DNA of 25,850 nucleotides. Origin: a virus. Of the stretch, positions 5,382-25,850 are shown one piece after another. The notes under the pieces were generated by a model. That model had not been told where the DNA came from, made no database searches, and was given only the letters and a program-made list of their open reading frames with translations. Numbering within the stretch: position 1 is the stretch's first letter; each line of letters opens with the position of its first letter. The position numbers were made by a program, and so were the translations under genes. The stretch is from positions 1-25,850 of IMG/VR virus record IMGVR_UViG_3300008120_000817; one strand, written 5' to 3'.

Positions 5382-5390
5382 AATGGCTAC

Positions 5391-6521
5391 GTGGCAACCT
5401 ACAGCGGCTGGGGAGAAGGTTATTGGGGCCAAGTCCCATGGGGCCAAGAGCTTGTTGAGGTTGATTTACAAGGATGGGGCTTTGGTAACTGGGGCAGTCA
5501 GGTCTGGGGCGGACAAAACGCGGGTTTGCAAGCGCAAGCCCTCGTCGGTACCGTCACGGTTAATGCCGTCCGAAATGTCACCGTCTCGTTCGATGCGTGG
5601 GGAAGTTCTGCTTGGGGATCGGGAAGCTGGAGCTATGGAACACCGCTTCCTGCCGCAAGTGGCCAAGTCGGCACCGTATCCCTGGCAACTGGGTCAAATG
5701 TCAGTGTCACCGGAGTACAAGGGACAGGCCAGGTTGGTCAAGTCACAGTCGGCGAAGGCACCGGGGTCCTTGTCACGGGAGTCCAGGCTAATGGCTTCGT
5801 CGGAGCTACTAACTTCCGAGCAGACGTTGCCGTCTACGTCGCGCCGCCTGGATGGGGAGCAGAAGGATATGGCATTGCAGCATGGGGCTATGGTAATGGA
5901 GGCCTATCAGCTAATGCCTATGTCGGCGCAGTCAATGCCGTTCCGGTCACAAACGTCCTCGTCACAGGGGTCCAAGCAAACGGCTTCGTTGGCGTTGCTA
6001 CGGTTACAGGGGCAGCAAATGTCAACGTCACTGGGGTCCAAGGCACTGGCCAAGTCGGTACAGCCACGGTTACAGGGACAGCAAATGTCACCCTCACGGG
6101 CGTATCCGCGCAGGGATTCGTTGGCGTTGCCACGGTTACGGCTGGGGCAAATGTCAACGTTACTGGCGTTCAGGGCACTACCCAGCTTGGTACGGTCGTT
6201 GTTCGCCAAGACGTTGCGGTTAGCGTTACTGGGGTCCAAGCAACTGCCAGCGTTGGCTCGGTCACTATTTCTCTGGCTTTGGACGTCTTTGTCACAGGCG
6301 TCCAGGCAGTTGGTCAGATCGGCCAAGCAGCGGCTGGAGGCCAAAGTTTTGTGTATGTTACAGGCGTTCAAGCGGTCGGTTACGTTGGAAACGTCACAGT
6401 TTGGGGCGTGGTTAATGACAACCAGGCCGCTAACTGGCAAAATGTCGATGATTCCCAGTCCGGCACTTGGGTGGTCGTCGATGATTCTCAATCCTCAACA
6501 TGGACTCGAATAGCAGCTTAA
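5391..6521 (+). CDS. Repeat-containing tail/surface protein with Trp-Gly N-terminus
   Basis: The product is 376 residues from GTG 5391; TAA 5373 blocks any upstream start. Residues 1-160 hold W-G-x(n)-W-G segments (GWGEGYWGQVPWGQ, GWGFGNWGSQVWGG, AWGSSAWGSGSWSYG, GWGAEGYGIAAWGYG). From about residue 104 a unit of roughly 22 residues repeats, with core V-T-G-V-Q-x-x-G-x-V-G-x-x-T-V, last seen at residue 323. The end is NWQNVDDSQSGTWVVVDDSQ and STWTRIAA. Such arrays form extended beta structures, as in phage tail fibres or surface adhesins. The same DNA is also open in frame 5383-6513, but that frame lacks the repeats. The adhesin role is inferred from architecture and position. Confidence 0.8.
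   Translation: MATYSGWGEGYWGQVPWGQELVEVDLQGWGFGNWGSQVWGGQNAGLQAQALVGTVTVNAVRNVTVSFDAWGSSAWGSGSWSYGTPLPAASGQVGTVSLATGSNVSVTGVQGTGQVGQVTVGEGTGVLVTGVQANGFVGATNFRADVAVYVAPPGWGAEGYGIAAWGYGNGGLSANAYVGAVNAVPVTNVLVTGVQANGFVGVATVTGAANVNVTGVQGTGQVGTATVTGTANVTLTGVSAQGFVGVATVTAGANVNVTGVQGTTQLGTVVVRQDVAVSVTGVQATASVGSVTISLALDVFVTGVQAVGQIGQAAAGGQSFVYVTGVQAVGYVGNVTVWGVVNDNQAANWQNVDDSQSGTWVVVDDSQSSTWTRIAA
5706..6401 (+). repeat. Array of degenerate repeats of about 66 bp (22 residues) in gene 5391
   Basis: The core GTC-ACN-GGN-GTC-CAA recurs from 5706 to about 6401, encoding V-T-G-V-Q. The better-preserved copies are spaced by about 66 bp. At least nine units are recognisable, for example VTGVQGTGQVG, VTGVQANGFVG, LTGVSAQGFVG, VTGVQGTTQLG, VTGVQATASVG and VTGVQAVGYVG. 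One insert with Trp-Gly residues interrupts the array near 5840-5920. The copies have diverged but keep frame. Confidence 0.8.
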
Positions 6522-15479: not shown

Positions 15480-17348
15480 ATGGCGTACTTTAGGCTGGCC
15501 CTCAAACCGGGCATTGACAAACAGAATACGGAGTATGGCGCCGAGGGTGGTTGGATCGACGGCGACTATATTCGTTTCCGTTATGGTCTTCCCGAGAAGC
15601 TTGGTGGCTGGACCACGTTCAATCAAACTCCGACATATCTTGTTGGCAATGTAACCGACATCCTTACTTGGAACGACTTGGAAGGTGCGCCATATTTAAT
15701 GGCGGCCACAAACCGCAAGCTTTATGCGTTTCAAGGCGGGGTTTGGGCAGACATTACCCCGATTCGTGAGACCACTACGGCTGGAGCGGTAACTTTTGCC
15801 GCATCTACTGGTAGCGATAGCGTCACTGTAACTGATAACTCTCATGGCGCAACTGCTGGGGACTTTGTTACTTTTAGCGGTGCGGTCAGTTTAGGGGGCG
15901 CGATAACAGCGACATATTTAAATACTGAATTTGAGATCCAACAAATCCTGTCCAGCAATACCTATAGGATTAAAGTTGGCGTCAATGCAGATGCGGGTGA
16001 CGTAGGTAATGGCGGAGCTTCCGTTGTTGGGGCCTATCAAGTTAACGCTGGTAATATTGCCGGGTATTTTGACTTTGGTTGGAGCGTAGGTACTTGGGGA
16101 TACTCTACTTGGGGTACTCCACGTACGGGCGTGCAGAACTTCAAACTCATTCCTGGCACATGGCAGTTGGATAACTACGGCGAAGACGTTGTCTGCCAAA
16201 TCACAAACGGCCCGATTTACCTTTGGGATACAAGCGCCGGTTTAGTTAATAACCGTGCTACGGCTATTTCTGGAGCGCCAACCAAGAGTTCGTATGCGCT
16301 TATTTCGACCCCCGACAGGCACCTTATTTGTTTTGGCACGGAAAATACGATTGGTTCTGTTACTACGCAGGACCCAATGTTTGTGCGGTTCTCCAACCAG
16401 GAGGACATCAACACCTTTGCTGAGTCAGCAACAAATACCGCTGGTGGCCAGCGTCTAACTGACGGAAGCATTATCCTGTCTGCAATACGATCACGCGGTC
16501 AGATCCTGATCTTTACAGACACATCCCTGCACGCCATGCAGTACATTGGCCCTCCCTATACCTTTGGATTCCAACAGCTTGGCGCAAACTGCGGATGTAT
16601 TGGTGCCCACGCTGCTGTAGACATTAATGGTCTAGCCTTCTGGATGGGCACAGAGGCTTTCTATTTATTTGATGGTACGGTCAAGAAGATGCCTTGCACG
16701 GTCCAGGACTATGTGTTCAAGGACATTAATCTTGTTCAGGGCTACAAGACTGCAGCCGGGACAAACTCTCAGTTTAATGAGGTTACCTGGTACTACTGCT
16801 CGGCCAACTCGGATGTGATTGACCGATCGGTTAGCTACAACTATTTAGAAAATGTTTGGTCCGTAGGATCTTTGGCCAGAACAGCCTGGTCAGATATTGG
16901 CACTTATGCCAAGCCAATAGCTTCTAATTACGAGCCGTTGTCTACAGATGCGACCATAAGCACTATTTATGGTCTGACTGCAGGTCGTTCAAGGATATTT
17001 AATCACGAGGATGGATATGACGCGGATGGCGCTCCTATTTTTGCATATATTAAGTCTGGGTACTTTGATATTGGTGACGGTGACAATATGCTCTATATGC
17101 GCCGCTTTATCCCTGATTTCAAAAATCAGGTACAAAATCTCACTGTACGCCTCTTGCTCAGACCCTATCCCCAGTCCTCGGCCCAGCCTTCCTCGCTCGA
17201 CCCGTATGTCATTACGCCGACTACGCAAAAGGTTGATACGAGGGCAAGAGGACGACAAATCAGCCTTGGCATAGAAAGCGCTGACTTAGGTAGCAACTGG
17301 CGCTTTGGAACATTACGAGTGGACATCCAGCCTGATGGATTACGATGA
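15480..17348 (+). CDS. Large tail/stabilisation protein (P22 gp10- or T7 gp12-like nozzle, tentative)
   Basis: The product is 622 residues. It begins MAYFRLALKPGIDKQNTEYG, then AEGGWIDGDYIRFRYGLPEK and LGGWTTF. This opening (G-D-Q-TE--A-GGW-D-D--RFR-G-PEK-GGW) is widespread in phage late modules. It is followed by repeated beta-blade-like segments such as ILTWNDLEGAPYLMAATNRK, LYAFQGGVWADITP and LIFTDTSLHAMQYIG, compatible with a beta-propeller. In podoviruses a propeller protein of this size forms the tail nozzle or packaged-DNA stabiliser. I infer that role from fold appearance, length and the preceding adaptors. It starts directly on the endolysin stop (TAAATG). Confidence 0.6.
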   Translation: MAYFRLALKPGIDKQNTEYGAEGGWIDGDYIRFRYGLPEKLGGWTTFNQTPTYLVGNVTDILTWNDLEGAPYLMAATNRKLYAFQGGVWADITPIRETTTAGAVTFAASTGSDSVTVTDNSHGATAGDFVTFSGAVSLGGAITATYLNTEFEIQQILSSNTYRIKVGVNADAGDVGNGGASVVGAYQVNAGNIAGYFDFGWSVGTWGYSTWGTPRTGVQNFKLIPGTWQLDNYGEDVVCQITNGPIYLWDTSAGLVNNRATAISGAPTKSSYALISTPDRHLICFGTENTIGSVTTQDPMFVRFSNQEDINTFAESATNTAGGQRLTDGSIILSAIRSRGQILIFTDTSLHAMQYIGPPYTFGFQQLGANCGCIGAHAAVDINGLAFWMGTEAFYLFDGTVKKMPCTVQDYVFKDINLVQGYKTAAGTNSQFNEVTWYYCSANSDVIDRSVSYNYLENVWSVGSLARTAWSDIGTYAKPIASNYEPLSTDATISTIYGLTAGRSRIFNHEDGYDADGAPIFAYIKSGYFDIGDGDNMLYMRRFIPDFKNQVQNLTVRLLLRPYPQSSAQPSSLDPYVITPTTQKVDTRARGRQISLGIESADLGSNWRFGTLRVDIQPDGLR

Positions 17349-18769
17349 GCAAAATATTAAATGTCCGCTTACCCGACGCCTCTGGTGGAAACTATGACCC
17401 GCAAAAGTTTAACCAACTGGTTCGGTCGTTGGAACAAGTTATTCTGCAACTTAACAGTACTTACACGCCAGTTACAAGCGAAAACACGCAAGCAGCCTTG
17501 TCATGGTTTGAAGCTGGTGGAGGACAGTGTGAAATGAATTCAGGCTCATCAACCCCAGTATCGATAGGCGGCACCAACGTAGATGCGTTTGGCAGACTAC
17601 GGGTAAGTGAGCCCTACAGCCTATTTGACAGCCAAAGCCGCTACGCTGCTGACAATCAATTTAGCACCTCTACCTCTGGTACTGGGACATCGACATTTAA
17701 CACCAATCAGTCCAGCGTTAGTCTGGCTGTGACGGGTGGTGGCGTTGGTTCTGTGGTGCGTCAGTCATTCCGGAATATGCTATATCAGCCGGGGAAAAGC
17801 CTGTTGGTTCTAGCAACCTTTCAGATGGACAACAGCACCTCTGCCAACCTTAATCAAAGTGTTGGGTACTTTAATACCCAAAACGGGTTATTCTTCCGTC
17901 GTACCGGCGGGGTTAATGCGTTCGTATTGCGCTCAAACACTTCTGGCACGCCAAGCGATGCACGGTTTGTCAACCAAACCGACTGGAATGGTGACAAACT
18001 AGACGGCACTGGCCCGTCTGGATACACGCTCGACCTCACTCACCCTCAGATCTTGTGGATGGACTTTGAGTGGCTAGGCGTCGGTTCGGTCAGATGTGGC
18101 TTTATTATTGACGGGCAATATGTTCTTTGCCATACATTTAATACTGCCAACGTCTACGGCACGACGGTCTACATGACCACTGCCATACTGCCTGTTCGCT
18201 ACGAAATCACCACTACAACGGCAGCAGTTGCCGCTACGCTCACGCAGATTTGCTCGTCGGTAATATCTGAAGGCGGATTTGAGGCCACATCAATTGAGCA
18301 CGTCGCAAGGCGGACAACGGTGCTTGGCACCATAAACACGGCGGCCAACTTCCTCCCAGTTGTCTCAATCCGGCTGGCATCGACGGCGTTGGGCGCGGTG
18401 GTGCTTCCAAACCGTATACAGTTTCAGCCGACCACGCTGCAAGACTACGAGATTGCGCTGATTAAAAACCCCGTCCTTACGGGAGCCACTTGGGCGGCAA
18501 CTGTTCCTTCTGATGCCAACGTTGAGTTTGATGTTGCGGCTACGGCGATTGCTACGGCAGGCACGATTGTCCAGACTGGATACGTTGCTAGTTCAGGCGG
18601 AGGGGGTCAAGCAGACACATCGGCTCCTACCGGATTTAACTGGGATCAGCAACTTGGCGTATCCCTAACGGACGTTAGCGACATCTATACTTTGGGCGTC
18701 CGCACGATTTCCGGTGCTACAACCGGCGACGGGGTTGGCTCTATCTCCTTCTATGACTTAACCCAGTGA
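17345..18769 (+). CDS. Large virion structural protein with 'GRLRVSEPYSLFDSQ' core
   Basis: The product is 474 residues. Residues 1-60 (MSKILNVRLPDASGGNYDPQ, then KFNQLVRSLEQVILQLNSTY) form a helical N-terminal anchor. From about residue 80 a large beta domain follows: DAFGRLRVSEPYSLFDSQSR, then VVRQSFRNMLYQPGKSLLVL, QILWMDFEWLGVGSVRCGFI and a conserved end TLGVRTISGATTGDGVGSIS. Proteins with this core occur, as I recall, in many phages and even in some large eukaryotic DNA viruses, where they are structural. No enzymatic site is visible. It overlaps the preceding gene by ATGA. A surface or tail-tip role is likely but unproven. Confidence 0.7.
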   Translation: MSKILNVRLPDASGGNYDPQKFNQLVRSLEQVILQLNSTYTPVTSENTQAALSWFEAGGGQCEMNSGSSTPVSIGGTNVDAFGRLRVSEPYSLFDSQSRYAADNQFSTSTSGTGTSTFNTNQSSVSLAVTGGGVGSVVRQSFRNMLYQPGKSLLVLATFQMDNSTSANLNQSVGYFNTQNGLFFRRTGGVNAFVLRSNTSGTPSDARFVNQTDWNGDKLDGTGPSGYTLDLTHPQILWMDFEWLGVGSVRCGFIIDGQYVLCHTFNTANVYGTTVYMTTAILPVRYEITTTTAAVAATLTQICSSVISEGGFEATSIEHVARRTTVLGTINTAANFLPVVSIRLASTALGAVVLPNRIQFQPTTLQDYEIALIKNPVLTGATWAATVPSDANVEFDVAATAIATAGTIVQTGYVASSGGGGQADTSAPTGFNWDQQLGVSLTDVSDIYTLGVRTISGATTGDGVGSISFYDLTQ

Positions 18770-18776
18770 CATCACT

Positions 18777-18920
18777 TGACAAATCTAGGATAATCACACT
18801 ATGTACCAAACAGCCTCCTCCCCCCAATACGCCTTTGGCCCCGGCCTATGACAAATCTAGGATAATCACACTATGTACCAAACAGCCTCCTCCCCCCAAT
18901 ACGCCTTTGGCCCCGGCCTA
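18777..18920 (+). repeat. Perfect 72-bp tandem direct duplication covering start of gene 18873
   Basis: Bases 18777-18848 are identical to 18849-18920, with no spacer and no mismatch. The unit runs from TGACAAATCTAGG to CCCCGGCCTA and contains the ribosome-binding site AGGA, the ATG (18801 or 18873) and 16 codons. The second unit begins with TGA in the frame of the first ATG. The first copy therefore encodes a stopped 16-residue peptide (18801-18851), and only the second ATG leads into the full gene. The 72-bp length keeps frame. It could be a real slippage duplication or an assembly artefact. Confidence 0.95.
18801..18851 (+). other. Truncated duplicate start (16-codon minicistron) before gene 18873
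   Basis: ATG 18801 reads MYQTASSPQYAFGPGL and meets TGA 18849-18851. Its ribosome-binding site (18787-18790) is the same as that of the real gene. If the duplication is genuine, ribosomes could translate this minicistron first and then reinitiate at 18873, lowering or coupling expression. Listed as a consequence of the repeat, not as an independent gene. Confidence 0.5.
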
Positions 18921-20489
18921 GCCCCTGTCCCTATGCCCGTTTATAAACGTGGTGGAGAGGTCAAAGAAACCTACGGCCTAGAGAATGCCGCTGAGATGAT
19001 CCGGCGCCGAGGCCGTGGGGAAGATACAGTCCTTGCCCACATTACCCCCCAAGAGGCTGGCATCCTGCAATTACTTGGCGGGTCTGGACAAATCAATCCA
19101 TATACGGGTTTACCCGAATTTGGCATCTTAAAGAAAATTGTTCCCAAGCCAATTTACAAACTAGGTTCTAAGATTGGTAAAGAGATTGAGCGTGGCATTG
19201 AATCTTTGGCAGAAAAACTTGGCCCTGTTGGTCAAATTGCCGCCTCTTACTTTGGTGGCCCAATTGGAGCCGCCTTATACGCTGGCCTAGCCCCCAAGGG
19301 TAGTAGTTTTGACGTTAAGAAAGCGGCTATTGCTGGTGCTCTAACTTATGGTGCAGGGCAACTTCAGGGTATGAGTGGTGCCGAAGCGGGTACCGGTGCC
19401 GGTGCTGGCGCTGGCGCTGATCTAGCCACTCAGCAGGCAATTGATGCCGGTATAGATATTGTTAGCGCCCCCAGTATGTATCCAAGCGTTAGCCAAGCGG
19501 TCTCCATGTCGGGGCCGGGTGCTTTTGAGGGAGCCGCTTCAGATGCTGCAACCTCATACTTCAATGCTCCTGTAGAGCCAATTACTTATACTCCAGACCC
19601 CAGTTCTTATGTCAGCGGTGCCGATTCTGCTGGTACATATGCAGGGACACCTACCGCAACAGATGCTTACCCAACTGCTCCTACTCGTTTACCTACTGCC
19701 AGTGAACAATATTTTGACAATACGATGGCACCAGATACAAGAAGTGCACTCCGACAAGGTTATGACGCCGTAAAACAAGGGTATAACACTGCGGTAGACA
19801 CTGTTGAAAGCGGAATTAAGAGTGTTATTCCAGAGCCAATACAGGATGCTTATGGCGCAACAAGAGATTTTGTTAAAGACCTTATCCCACCAGATTACCG
19901 TGAGATGTTAAGCACCGCTAAAGATGTGGCGCTAATTGGTTCTGGTGCTACAGCGGCCTATGGCGCGTACCAAACCAAGAAAGAACTTGATGCTGCTAAA
20001 GCCGAGGCTGACCGCATTCTGGCCGATCAGGCTAACCGTAAGAAAGAAGAGATTGAGTGGGCACAGGGCGTCATGCGCGACTACCCCTATAACTACCAGC
20101 GTTTAACTGAAGCAGAGGTTCGCAGTGAGCGCGGCATGGCGATGGGTGGTCGGATCGACTCTTACGACGATGAAATCGGTGGCGATGACAATATGATGCA
20201 GGGTGGCATTGCTTCCCTAGCCAAAGGTGGTCTGCCACCTCGGTATCTTCGTGGCGGTGGCGACGGAATGAGCGACTCCATCAGGGCTAATATTGAGGGT
20301 AAGCAGGAAGCCCGACTGGCTGATGGTGAGTTTGTAGTCCCCGCTGACGTGGTATCCCACCTTGGTAATGGCTCCTCTAATGCCGGGGCTAAAAGACTAT
20401 ATTCAATGATGGACAGGGTGCGTAGATCACGCACAGGAAAAACCCGTCAGGCGCCTGAAGTTAATACTCGTCGCTTGATGCCTGCTTAA
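18873..20489 (+). CDS. Virion-associated protein with terminal 'GEDTVLAHITP/GEFVVPADVV' modules (probable internal protein)
   Basis: The product is 538 residues. Residues 26-83 include RGGEV and RGEDTVLAHITPQEAGILQL, then GGSGQINPYTGLPEFG. Residues about 117-141 are small-residue hydrophobic (GPVGQIAASYFGGPIGAALY), followed by an Ala/Gly-rich stretch and a Pro/Ser/Tyr-rich region. A coiled-coil-like segment follows (KKELDAAKAEADRILADQAN). The C-terminal 98 residues hold GGIASLAKGGLPPRYLRGGG, SDSIRANI, ADGEFVVPADVVSHLGNG and KRLYSMMDRVR. This C-terminal module recurs in large phage virion proteins. The architecture suggests an internal or ejected protein. Its start lies inside a perfect 72-bp duplication. 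Confidence 0.7.
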   Translation: MYQTASSPQYAFGPGLAPVPMPVYKRGGEVKETYGLENAAEMIRRRGRGEDTVLAHITPQEAGILQLLGGSGQINPYTGLPEFGILKKIVPKPIYKLGSKIGKEIERGIESLAEKLGPVGQIAASYFGGPIGAALYAGLAPKGSSFDVKKAAIAGALTYGAGQLQGMSGAEAGTGAGAGAGADLATQQAIDAGIDIVSAPSMYPSVSQAVSMSGPGAFEGAASDAATSYFNAPVEPITYTPDPSSYVSGADSAGTYAGTPTATDAYPTAPTRLPTASEQYFDNTMAPDTRSALRQGYDAVKQGYNTAVDTVESGIKSVIPEPIQDAYGATRDFVKDLIPPDYREMLSTAKDVALIGSGATAAYGAYQTKKELDAAKAEADRILADQANRKKEEIEWAQGVMRDYPYNYQRLTEAEVRSERGMAMGGRIDSYDDEIGGDDNMMQGGIASLAKGGLPPRYLRGGGDGMSDSIRANIEGKQEARLADGEFVVPADVVSHLGNGSSNAGAKRLYSMMDRVRRSRTGKTRQAPEVNTRRLMPA

Positions 20490-20499
20490 AGGATAGATC

Positions 20500-21432
20500 A
20501 TGGCAACTACCCAACAAGTCGTAACCAGTCAATTACCTACCGCGTTTGAGGAGTTTTATAAGACCGGTGCCCAAGGCGTCCCCGGCCTAATCCCGCAGGC
20601 GTTTAAACTCTACGGAGCAGGTTCTCCTGCCGAGTATCAAGCCAATATCAAAGGCCCCCTAGAAGCGGCTAACCTCTATACCGGAGCACAGCGAGTAGCG
20701 GGTCTAACCCCCGGACAACAACAGGTAGGCGCACAACTCTCTGCTATGCAGACCCCCGGGCAGTTTGCTATGGGGACTGGCGCTCTTGGCTCAGGCTATG
20801 CAGCAGCCACCGGGCTTCCAAGTATGTTAGATCAAGGGGTGATGCAGCAATATATGTCCCCCTATGCACAGGGCGTGATTGACGTTCAGAAACAGCAAGC
20901 CCTAACAGATGCCCAGAAAGCCCAGTTAGCCACTAACTTAGGAGCAGCCCGTCAAGGTACTTATGGCGGAGCACGGCAACTGCTTGCCACCACAGAACGT
21001 GAGCGCAACCTCCAGAACCAACTCGGTGACATCCAAGCCAAGGGACTTCAGGCCGCATACGAGGCCGGTCAAAAAGGACTGGAAGCAGAGCGTACTGCTC
21101 GTCTGCAACAGGCACAAACTTACGGCACACTAGGCCAGCAGTTTGGTCAGTTAGGCGCAGTACAGCAGACAGCAGACATTGACCGTCTCAAGACCCTCGG
21201 AGCCTATGGTGACTACGAGCGTGCATTGGCACAACAGAAGACAGATATTGACTATCAGAACCTCTTAGAGCGCATCCAGTATCCTGAGCAGCAACTGGAT
21301 AAACTGAGCGGCTTTATCCGTGGTATCCCAATGACAGACAGGACGATGCAGACAACCGCCCCACCGCCTTCATTTGCAAGTCAGTTGGCCGGTCTTGGAA
21401 TTGCCGGTCTTGGCGCTTTCATGAATAAGTAA
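20500..21432 (+). CDS. Internal/ejection-type virion protein (helical, probable)
   Basis: The product is 310 residues and mostly helical, rich in Ala, Gln, Gly and Leu. It contains MLDQGVMQQYMSPYAQGVID, then VQKQQALTDAQKAQLATNLG, AARQGTYGGARQLLATTERE and a Gln/Leu-rich amphipathic stretch (LQAAYEAGQKGLEAERTARL, then QQAQTYGTLGQQFGQLGAVQ). The YMSPY-Q-V-DV ... A---GA-GG-R motif is known to me from uncharacterised phage proteins beside internal virion genes. The C-terminus (LAGLGIAGLGAFMNK) is a short hydrophobic helix. With its neighbours it probably belongs to a set of proteins ejected to build a channel across the cell envelope, by analogy to P22 gp7/gp16/gp20. This is inference. Confidence 0.65.
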   Translation: MATTQQVVTSQLPTAFEEFYKTGAQGVPGLIPQAFKLYGAGSPAEYQANIKGPLEAANLYTGAQRVAGLTPGQQQVGAQLSAMQTPGQFAMGTGALGSGYAAATGLPSMLDQGVMQQYMSPYAQGVIDVQKQQALTDAQKAQLATNLGAARQGTYGGARQLLATTERERNLQNQLGDIQAKGLQAAYEAGQKGLEAERTARLQQAQTYGTLGQQFGQLGAVQQTADIDRLKTLGAYGDYERALAQQKTDIDYQNLLERIQYPEQQLDKLSGFIRGIPMTDRTMQTTAPPPSFASQLAGLGIAGLGAFMNK

Positions 21433-22684: not shown

Positions 22685-25600
22685 ATGCCTATCGCATCGT
22701 TTCAGTTACCTGACGGGAAGATTGCGGACTTCGAAGTTCCTGAGGGGATGTCTCAGGAAGAGATTGAGCAGGCGGTTGGCCCAGAGTTACGCAGGCTTGT
22801 TGCTCCTCCGGCTCCTCCAAAGCCAGAAGAGTCTGGGTTCCTGCGTCAGGCAGCAGATATACCTGTAACTGTTGCCAAGGGTGCAGCCTCTGGTGTTCGT
22901 GCGATTGCGGATATATTTGGCGCAAACAATCCTGTATCTCGTGGGATCAGGGGCGCTGAGGATTACCTAGACTCCCTCCTATCGGCTGAGGCCAGAAACG
23001 ATCAGCAAGAAATTGCTCGGATCATGAAAGAGGCCGAGGATAAGGGTATCGCTGCCGAGGTTACTGCTGCCGCTAAGGCTTTTGCTTCGGCCCCGGTAGA
23101 CTTTTTGGCACAGGCTTTGGGTAGTGCCGCACCTGCTGTGGCAGGAGGTCTATATGCCAAACTTTTAAAACTTGGTGCCGTTGGAGTTGGGGCAGTTACC
23201 ACCGGAATTGGTGGTGCAACAGGCGCAGGTATCGTCAAGGGATCTATCTATGATGCCGTCAAGGGCGCCCTGACTGAAGCAGGAGAATCCCCTGAGGTAG
23301 CAGAGGCTAGAGCGCAGGCAGCGCAGTCTTATGGCGGAGAGAACTGGGGTCAGATATTGACAGGCACAGCTCTTGGTGGACTAGCAGGCCGTACCGGTGT
23401 TGAGAAACTTCTCTTAAATAGATTTGGTAAGGCAGAGGTTGCCGAACAAGCTGCTAAGGGTGTAGGTAGACGGGCTGTTGAGGGTGCCGTAACCGAAGCG
23501 GTTCCTGAGATGGCTCAGGCCGGTCAAGAACAGTTAGCACAGAACGTCGCTCTTCAAAGAGAAGGGTTTGATGTATCGACGTTACGTGGCGTTGCCGGTG
23601 CTGCGACCTTAGAAGGTTTGGCTGGTGGCGCACTTGGTGCTGGATTGGGAGCCCTACCTAGTGGTGCCCAGGCTGAGCCTACAGTTACTCCTACCCCGCC
23701 TGTTGAAGAGCCTAAAACTGTATCTACAAATATTTATGATGTTGTTGACTTCGATGGCAATCAGACCAAGGTTGCGGTCACTGAGGATGATTTAGGAAAT
23801 ATTGTTGCTAAGGATGTAAACGGGGAAGAAGTAGACTTAACAAATGTGATAAGTAGCGGTGTATCAATTCAGGATGCCGTCAAAAAGACGTTCTCTCCTG
23901 ACGACGCTCCTGATCCGGTCTTGTCTACAGAACCTCCTGTTGAGAGCATTCCTGAGACCGAACTAACTTCTGAACAAGAGTTAGAAACAGAACCATTTAC
24001 GCCTCCCGTATCTAGGGAGCCTATTCCTCAACCCGCCCCTCAACCCATTCCTCAGCCTACCCCTCAGCCAACTTCTATTCCTGAGGCAACCATCGAGGAC
24101 GAGCCAGCCACTGAAGAGCCTCGTATTGAATTGCCACCGGTTGAAAAACCTGCCGCTCCAGTTACAAATCTGAATGAAATACAGACTGGCCAACCGTTTA
24201 CTTTTGAAGGATTCCGTGGAGAAGGAAAGCCCAAGGAAGAGGTTTATACAGGCGCTCGTATCGCGGTTGGCGGCGAAGGAAGATACATTGCTGATACAGA
24301 GGAAAGCGCTAAAAACTACGGGGATCAAGTAGCTCGTGAAACAGTAACCTTAAACAACCCGCTAGTTATTCGTAATGATGATGAGTGGAGGACACTGACT
24401 CGTCAGGCAGGTTGGCGGTTTCCTAATCCGTTTGGCCTTGAAGAGCCTGTTGTTAAAAGGATGACAGAATCGCTTTCTACTTTGGTTAAGGGTCAAGGAT
24501 ATGACGGGTTAGTCATTGACATGGATCCACGAGGGGACATGGCCAAGACCCTGTACAACGTCTTTGGTCACCCACAGGTTATCTCTTATGCCCCAGCCAA
24601 ACCATCCAAGGAAGTTGCGGCCGCCCCATCATCTGCCGCTAAGAAGACATCTGACTTCATTGATGCCGAAGTCGAGGCTCTAGGTCCACCTCCTGCCGGT
24701 GAAGATCCTAAGCAGTCTATTGCTCGTCGTATTCAGGAAACCAAGAACGCTTGGAGGAAGTATCAAAAATTTGCCAAGGAATTGGCACCTCAAGAGAAGT
24801 TCAATGAGGCTCAGTTCAAGATGGTCTTTGATCGTAGACGCCGTGCCTACGAAGAAAAGGTTGGAACAAGGACTGCCGCCCCTGTTGCGCCCAAGGCTCC
24901 CAAGGCTCCTAAAGTAACTCCTGCCCCAACCGTAACTCCTACAGAACCAAGCGAAGCAGAATTGGCTGGCCGTATTCAAGCCAACCCTCAGGAGCGTGCT
25001 GTTGCTAACACACTAGCAGAGGAAATGCTAGGTGAAGTGGTTTGGCAAAACGGTAAGACTGCCATGTTGCGTGTTGCCGACCCCAAGTACGGGAAGATGC
25101 GGTACATCGTGACAGTTGGTCGAAAGAAAACAGCAGCCGATGTTCGTGAATATATTGGCAACATAGTTGACTTTAATCTTCTTTCCGAGCTTAGGGTTTT
25201 GGCAGATCAATTTGAGTCTGATGCACGAACCAAACACAACGCCAATCCCTATGTGAAGTTTAGCCAAGGGATTTCCGTATCTGATGATATAGATCCAAGG
25301 ATTGAAGGCATACTCAAGGGGTGGAGAAAAGAGCTTGGCATGGGCGCCAAGATCCACATTACCACTCTTGATGCCGTCAAGAGAAACCGTAATAAGTACA
25401 CTGGTCCACACCGAAGCATTATTGGCGGAGCGTTAAATCCTGATGCCCAGGGTTATATGCAGAAGTGGGACGATGGCAATTACTACATCGTCTTCACCAA
25501 GTCCACTAGCCCCACACGGATACTAGAGACAATTGCTCATGAGTTAGGCCACATTCACCAGCGTGATATGTTTGAGAATGCCGATCCTGCGCTCAAGCGT

Positions 25601-25850
25601 GAGGTAATGGCTGCGTATAACCGGTGGTTAGTTAAGAATAAACCCAAGAATGTCAAAGACTTCCTGCATTCTTTGCGTGCAAAAACAGCGGCGCAAGTTG
25701 CAACCGCAAAGGTTTCAGAATCAGGTTTAGCAAAACCGTCTTCGGTACTTAATCCGTATTGGAGATCATTTAGTGAATGGTATGCCGATCAAGTTTCTCG
25801 ATGGGCAGTCTCTAATGACAAACCGGTCGGGATTGTTGAACAGTTCTTCG
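22685..25850 (+). CDS. Giant polyvalent-type virion protein: ADP-ribosyltransferase-like and zincin metallopeptidase regions (3'-truncated)
   Basis: The frame is open for 1055 codons to the window edge. The N-terminus MPIASFQLPDGKIADFEVPE, then GMSQEEIEQAVGPEL, is typical of large virion proteins. Small-residue hydrophobic stretches (about 145-190 and 300-325) suit membrane or channel interaction. A Pro-rich linker (about 330-495) leads to an ART-like region (about 512-633): YTGARIAV, IADTEESAKNYGDQV, GYDGLVIDM (Tyr606-Asp607-Gly608) and FGHPQVISYAP. A Lys/Arg-rich helical part (about 676-728) follows. Near the end TIAHELGHIHQ holds HExxH (His952, Glu953, His956), with EWYAD supplying Glu1031 as probable third zinc ligand. 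This matches polyvalent proteins injected with phage DNA. The substrate and partners are unknown. Confidence 0.72.
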   Translation, partial: MPIASFQLPDGKIADFEVPEGMSQEEIEQAVGPELRRLVAPPAPPKPEESGFLRQAADIPVTVAKGAASGVRAIADIFGANNPVSRGIRGAEDYLDSLLSAEARNDQQEIARIMKEAEDKGIAAEVTAAAKAFASAPVDFLAQALGSAAPAVAGGLYAKLLKLGAVGVGAVTTGIGGATGAGIVKGSIYDAVKGALTEAGESPEVAEARAQAAQSYGGENWGQILTGTALGGLAGRTGVEKLLLNRFGKAEVAEQAAKGVGRRAVEGAVTEAVPEMAQAGQEQLAQNVALQREGFDVSTLRGVAGAATLEGLAGGALGAGLGALPSGAQAEPTVTPTPPVEEPKTVSTNIYDVVDFDGNQTKVAVTEDDLGNIVAKDVNGEEVDLTNVISSGVSIQDAVKKTFSPDDAPDPVLSTEPPVESIPETELTSEQELETEPFTPPVSREPIPQPAPQPIPQPTPQPTSIPEATIEDEPATEEPRIELPPVEKPAAPVTNLNEIQTGQPFTFEGFRGEGKPKEEVYTGARIAVGGEGRYIADTEESAKNYGDQVARETVTLNNPLVIRNDDEWRTLTRQAGWRFPNPFGLEEPVVKRMTESLSTLVKGQGYDGLVIDMDPRGDMAKTLYNVFGHPQVISYAPAKPSKEVAAAPSSAAKKTSDFIDAEVEALGPPPAGEDPKQSIARRIQETKNAWRKYQKFAKELAPQEKFNEAQFKMVFDRRRRAYEEKVGTRTAAPVAPKAPKAPKVTPAPTVTPTEPSEAELAGRIQANPQERAVANTLAEEMLGEVVWQNGKTAMLRVADPKYGKMRYIVTVGRKKTAADVREYIGNIVDFNLLSELRVLADQFESDARTKHNANPYVKFSQGISVSDDIDPRIEGILKGWRKELGMGAKIHITTLDAVKRNRNKYTGPHRSIIGGALNPDAQGYMQKWDDGNYYIVFTKSTSPTRILETIAHELGHIHQRDMFENADPALKREVMAAYNRWLVKNKPKNVKDFLHSLRAKTAAQVATAKVSESGLAKPSSVLNPYWRSFSEWYADQVSRWAVSNDKPVGIVEQFF

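Follow-up and report, generated by a model that had tools for sequence, protein, structure and literature searches.

A 72-bp segment carrying the translation start of a probable internal virion protein gene stands twice in direct tandem in the 25,850-base linear virus record of IMG/VR type analysed here (the window), and a recent, real and lineage-specific duplication with nearly neutral effect is the explanation that we consider a little better than evenly likely. The identical abutting units lie at 18777-18848 and 18849-18920 (Tandem Repeats Finder: period 72, 2.0 copies, 100% match, 0 indels), an exact identity that cannot be chance. Read directly from the sequence, each unit consists of TGACAAATCTAGGATAATCACACT, comprising leader and Shine-Dalgarno, followed by ATG and 15 further codons, with a Shine-Dalgarno-like AGGA at 18787-18790 in the first copy and at 18859-18862 in the second. 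The ATG of copy 1 (18801-18803) is followed by 15 codons and an in-frame TGA at 18849-18851, which is formed by the first bases of copy 2, giving a stopped minicistron (18801-18851) that encodes MYQTASSPQYAFGPGL. The ATG of copy 2 at 18873 lies beyond a gap of 21 nt and opens the intact 538-aa ORF (18873-20489). Readthrough of the TGA fusing both copies is ruled out, since TGA CAA ATC TAG brings a further stop three codons on. The first-pass annotation had thus correctly described two perfect copies, each with a ribosome-binding site, ATG and 16 codons (a count that includes the ATG), the upstream one a stopped minicistron, and it had rightly placed the gene among virion genes. Upstream lies a gene for a 474-aa virion structural protein (17345-18769; phrog_1645, head and packaging, E 4e-98), and downstream one for a DNA ejection protein (20500-21432; phrog_4287, E 6e-14); these three genes, both copies and the elements within them all lie on the plus strand. 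Neither Pfam nor PHROG yields a family for the 538-aa protein, which matches weakly an isolate-phage protein annotated as tail tape measure; because of this match and its neighbours, as well as its relatives, we call it a probable internal virion protein. Searches of solved structures and of Rfam returned no match. Elsewhere in the window, a large ORF at 22685-25849, open at the contig end, has weak DarB-like antirestriction, ART-PolyVal and metallopeptidase profile matches that suggest a polyvalent ejected protein, and a coding repeat with a 66-bp unit, present in 2.3 copies that have diverged to a 66% match, occupies 5985-6139 inside the ORF 5383-6513.

A leader, TTGACAAATCTAGGATAAT, occupies 18776-18794, with 6 nt between it and the ATG at 18801; no matches to it are expected by chance in the window. 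At the junction between the copies, which reads GGCCTA followed by TGACAAATC, the first T of TTGACA is replaced by A, so that the second leader, ATGACAAATCTAGGATAAT (18848-18866), carries one mismatch at its first base and an ATG arises at 18848. This ATG would open a candidate ORF of five codons, ATG ACA AAT CTA GGA TAA (18848-18865), which overlaps the minicistron TGA as ATGA and ends 7 nt before the main ATG.

The leader is old and conserved, as judged from its recurrence in relatives. After removal of duplicates, 20 other distinct loci carry GACAAATC[T/A]AGGATAAT, six bases and then the ATG of the virion gene, always once, although motif invariance among these loci is partly by construction because they were picked by motif. 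Selection by protein alone gave 18 related loci, the nine closest of which all have one copy before the gene; eight of these nine retain the exact leader, and the remaining one (L007) keeps only AAATCAAGGATAAT, being degenerate at the 5' end. A search with the leader itself matched 37 contigs once each, 19 of them upstream of the virion gene family and the remainder unrelated; a degenerate pattern gave mostly unrelated matches yet exposed a variant, AAGGATAAT, which a further search found once apiece in six contigs. Before the same gene, relatives (L002-L010, L029, L032, L034, L050, L051, L072, L084, L121, L123, L168 and others) likewise show TTGACAAATC[T/A]AGGATAAT, 6 nt and ATG, in single copy everywhere outside this contig, where the element is doubled. 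Since the leader is kept despite a different upstream gene (L006, L029, L032, L062) and despite a different protein N-terminus (L032, L048, L062, L072), the element seems to be under selection in its own right, and its core, AGGATAAT-N6-ATG, would most simply be a strictly spaced ribosome-binding site. The 16-codon minicistron is absent from the relatives and peculiar to this contig. No relative emerged from the protein search of genome_contigs, where the leader pattern gave three unrelated matches, about the chance expectation; blastn of the repeat region against isolate phages returned chance-level matches only, and the junction sequence had no match in viral_contigs, a set that may not include the record of the window itself.

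Comparison with the nearest single-copy relative (L008) dates the event. Five of the 72 positions of the unit differ and all five differences are common to both copies, therefore the duplication arose after the split from that relative, or in assembly; on this sequence comparison it is confined to the contig's lineage or to its assembly. The shared differences are better evidence of a young event than the identity of the copies, which over 72 bp bounds their divergence only to less than about 4% (95%, our own arithmetic). The flanks of the junction (T/A on the left, G/T on the right) share 0 bp of homology. In phage T4, tandem amplifications are reported with junction homology of 2-10 bp (PMC9391042), a range that defines the microhomology type and not all duplications; the present case falls outside that type, and its lack of such microhomology counts against a real duplication. 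The T4 dmd-tifA duplications and amplifications (PMC9391042) are head-to-tail exact phage copies, as here, but they involve whole genes and microhomology, whereas the present repeat has 72 bp, two copies only, no microhomology and no known selection. Our literature search on short phage duplications with microhomology found no paper under the terms used.

On the reading that we favour, illegitimate (no-homology) end joining or template switching would have duplicated the translation-initiation region of the virion gene, in the phage and not only in the assembly. Ribosomes starting at copy 1 would make a 16-residue peptide, stop, and then leave or restart via the ATGA and the second initiation site. 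Copy 2 comprises leader, Shine-Dalgarno and start in full; the gene is therefore intact, and the duplication would for the same reason be nearly neutral. The opening energy from -15 to +14 (ViennaRNA, four context lengths) is 3.7-4.4 kcal/mol for copy 2 and 4.1-5.4 kcal/mol for the single copy, so that the second start is predicted to be as accessible as the single-copy start or slightly more, and with accessibility unreduced little effect on expression is expected. The proposal in the first-pass annotation that the repeat tunes expression is accordingly unsupported, the second initiation site being complete and its predicted accessibility equal or slightly higher, and that of a variable locus gaining and losing the repeat is likewise unsupported, as no relative with two or three copies occurs among the 20 other leader-bearing loci or L007. 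Its alternatives of a very recent event or an assembly error both stand, the single-copy relatives supporting an event restricted to this lineage or to its assembly; the deep conservation of the leader, the ATGA overlap made by the junction and the mosaic boundary described below are points that it missed.

An assembly artefact, in which contig ends overlapping by 72 bp were set end to end unmerged or a chimeric read was incorporated, is a substantial possibility, if a lesser one than a real event. The perfect identity, the blunt junction at arbitrary places and the want of a copy in relatives all speak for it, and the repeat sits where the closest relative switches: across 18600-19200 the left side is nearest to G003/L011 (up to 96%) and the right side to G001 (up to 100%), a mosaic boundary at which assembly graphs may branch, while the 72-bp unit itself is nearest to G007/L008. 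However, joining two phages at a stretch that they share would give a chimera but not, by itself, two identical copies, and graph assemblers build such a repeat only with junction-bearing reads; nor is 72 known to be a typical overlap length of the usual assemblers. Gene synteny with relatives is unbroken across the repeat. An untrimmed or rotated circular contig was rejected, as joining end to start breaks the frame within a few codons and there is no terminal repeat. The rarity of similar cases tells against an artefact: no other exact two-copy duplication with a non-repetitive unit of at least 40 bp occurs in about 2.0 Mb of partly redundant viral DNA from the same kind of contigs, the remaining exact arrays (L166, L199, L208, L251) being composed of shorter sub-repeats. 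Natural events of this type are rare here too, however, so the rate favours neither origin. A perfect direct repeat should be prone to loss; for one to stand in the consensus, either the clone is young, or selection maintains the repeat, or it is an artefact, and this counts against the favoured reading.

That selection has kept a real duplication, the minicistron altering virion gene output or the copy number acting as a switch, is in our judgement unlikely. The junction yields ATGA, which is the most frequent of the stop/start overlaps between adjacent genes. In one study cited in a review (PMC12548453), translational coupling did not change for spacings of -4 to +25 nt, a range that contains the 21 nt separating the minicistron's stop from the main ATG; other studies cited in the same review find that coupling drops with distance. 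Given the overlap and the spacing, ribosomes finishing the minicistron could restart locally, and a stop/restart chain would survive via the ATGA at the first copy's stop. The arrangement thus resembles the coupled minicistrons of that review (PMC12548453), a short ORF ending 21 nt before an SD-bearing start plus ATGA. Unlike them, it originated as a copy of the start of the gene itself, its coupling is putative, and its 16-codon form is not conserved in relatives, though other mini-ORFs exist there. Many distant relatives do have a mini-ORF overlapping the start of the virion gene, but none with two or three copies was found, predicted accessibility is hardly altered, and an ATG beside an in-frame stop at the junction is not unlikely as a chance outcome (about 1 in 12, our own estimate). 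A duplicated promoter is far less credible still and can almost be dismissed. The leader includes TTGACA, and a promoter-like GTGACA-17-GATAAT lies at 18766-18794; yet no TATAAT-like box follows TTGACA at proper spacing, the GTGACA-17-GATAAT pattern occurs once where shuffled sequence would give 0.6, and its GTGACA box is missing from relatives and from copy 2.

The mini-ORF pattern of the wider relatives is possibly more interesting than the duplication. Using a family profile, we compared 48 leaders less than 80% mutually identical with those of 217 other genes from the same contigs, defining a mini-ORF as a small ATG ORF that starts 26-45 nt upstream and ends between -15 and +4 of the start. 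Such ORFs precede 23/48 family members and 34/217 controls (Fisher p 7e-6), and they end exactly in ATGA in 17 and 17 cases, respectively (p 4e-6), both p values being too strong since the leaders are related by descent; 13 of the 17 ATGA-ending family mini-ORFs start exactly at -38. Mini-ORFs of 11-13 codons, most often starting exactly 38 nt ahead of the gene homologous to 18873-20489 and closing with ATGA at its start (about -38 to +4), were seen in L018, L182, L183, L185, L191, L198, L199, L201, L206, L210, L211, L215, L223, L230, L231, L233, L235 and L249. The ATG form is absent from most of the window's own group. Selection on the encoded peptide is unsupported, third codon positions being no more variable than others; the peptide is therefore apparently irrelevant, and it seems to be the length and overlap that are conserved. 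A stop/restart relay is a possible role for these mini-ORFs. That the gene family is normally reached by such a relay, extended here by the duplicated initiation region with the ATGA keeping the chain and the copy number setting the dose of internal virion protein, is improbable, marginally more so than selective maintenance as such.

If the repeat is an artefact, it serves as a warning on short perfect repeats in metagenomic contigs. If it is real, it shows a phage soon after a translation start was duplicated, with the gene undamaged, and illustrates in nature how new minicistrons come about. The conserved leader and the mini-ORFs that precede the gene family suggest a common means of setting the amount of the internal virion protein.
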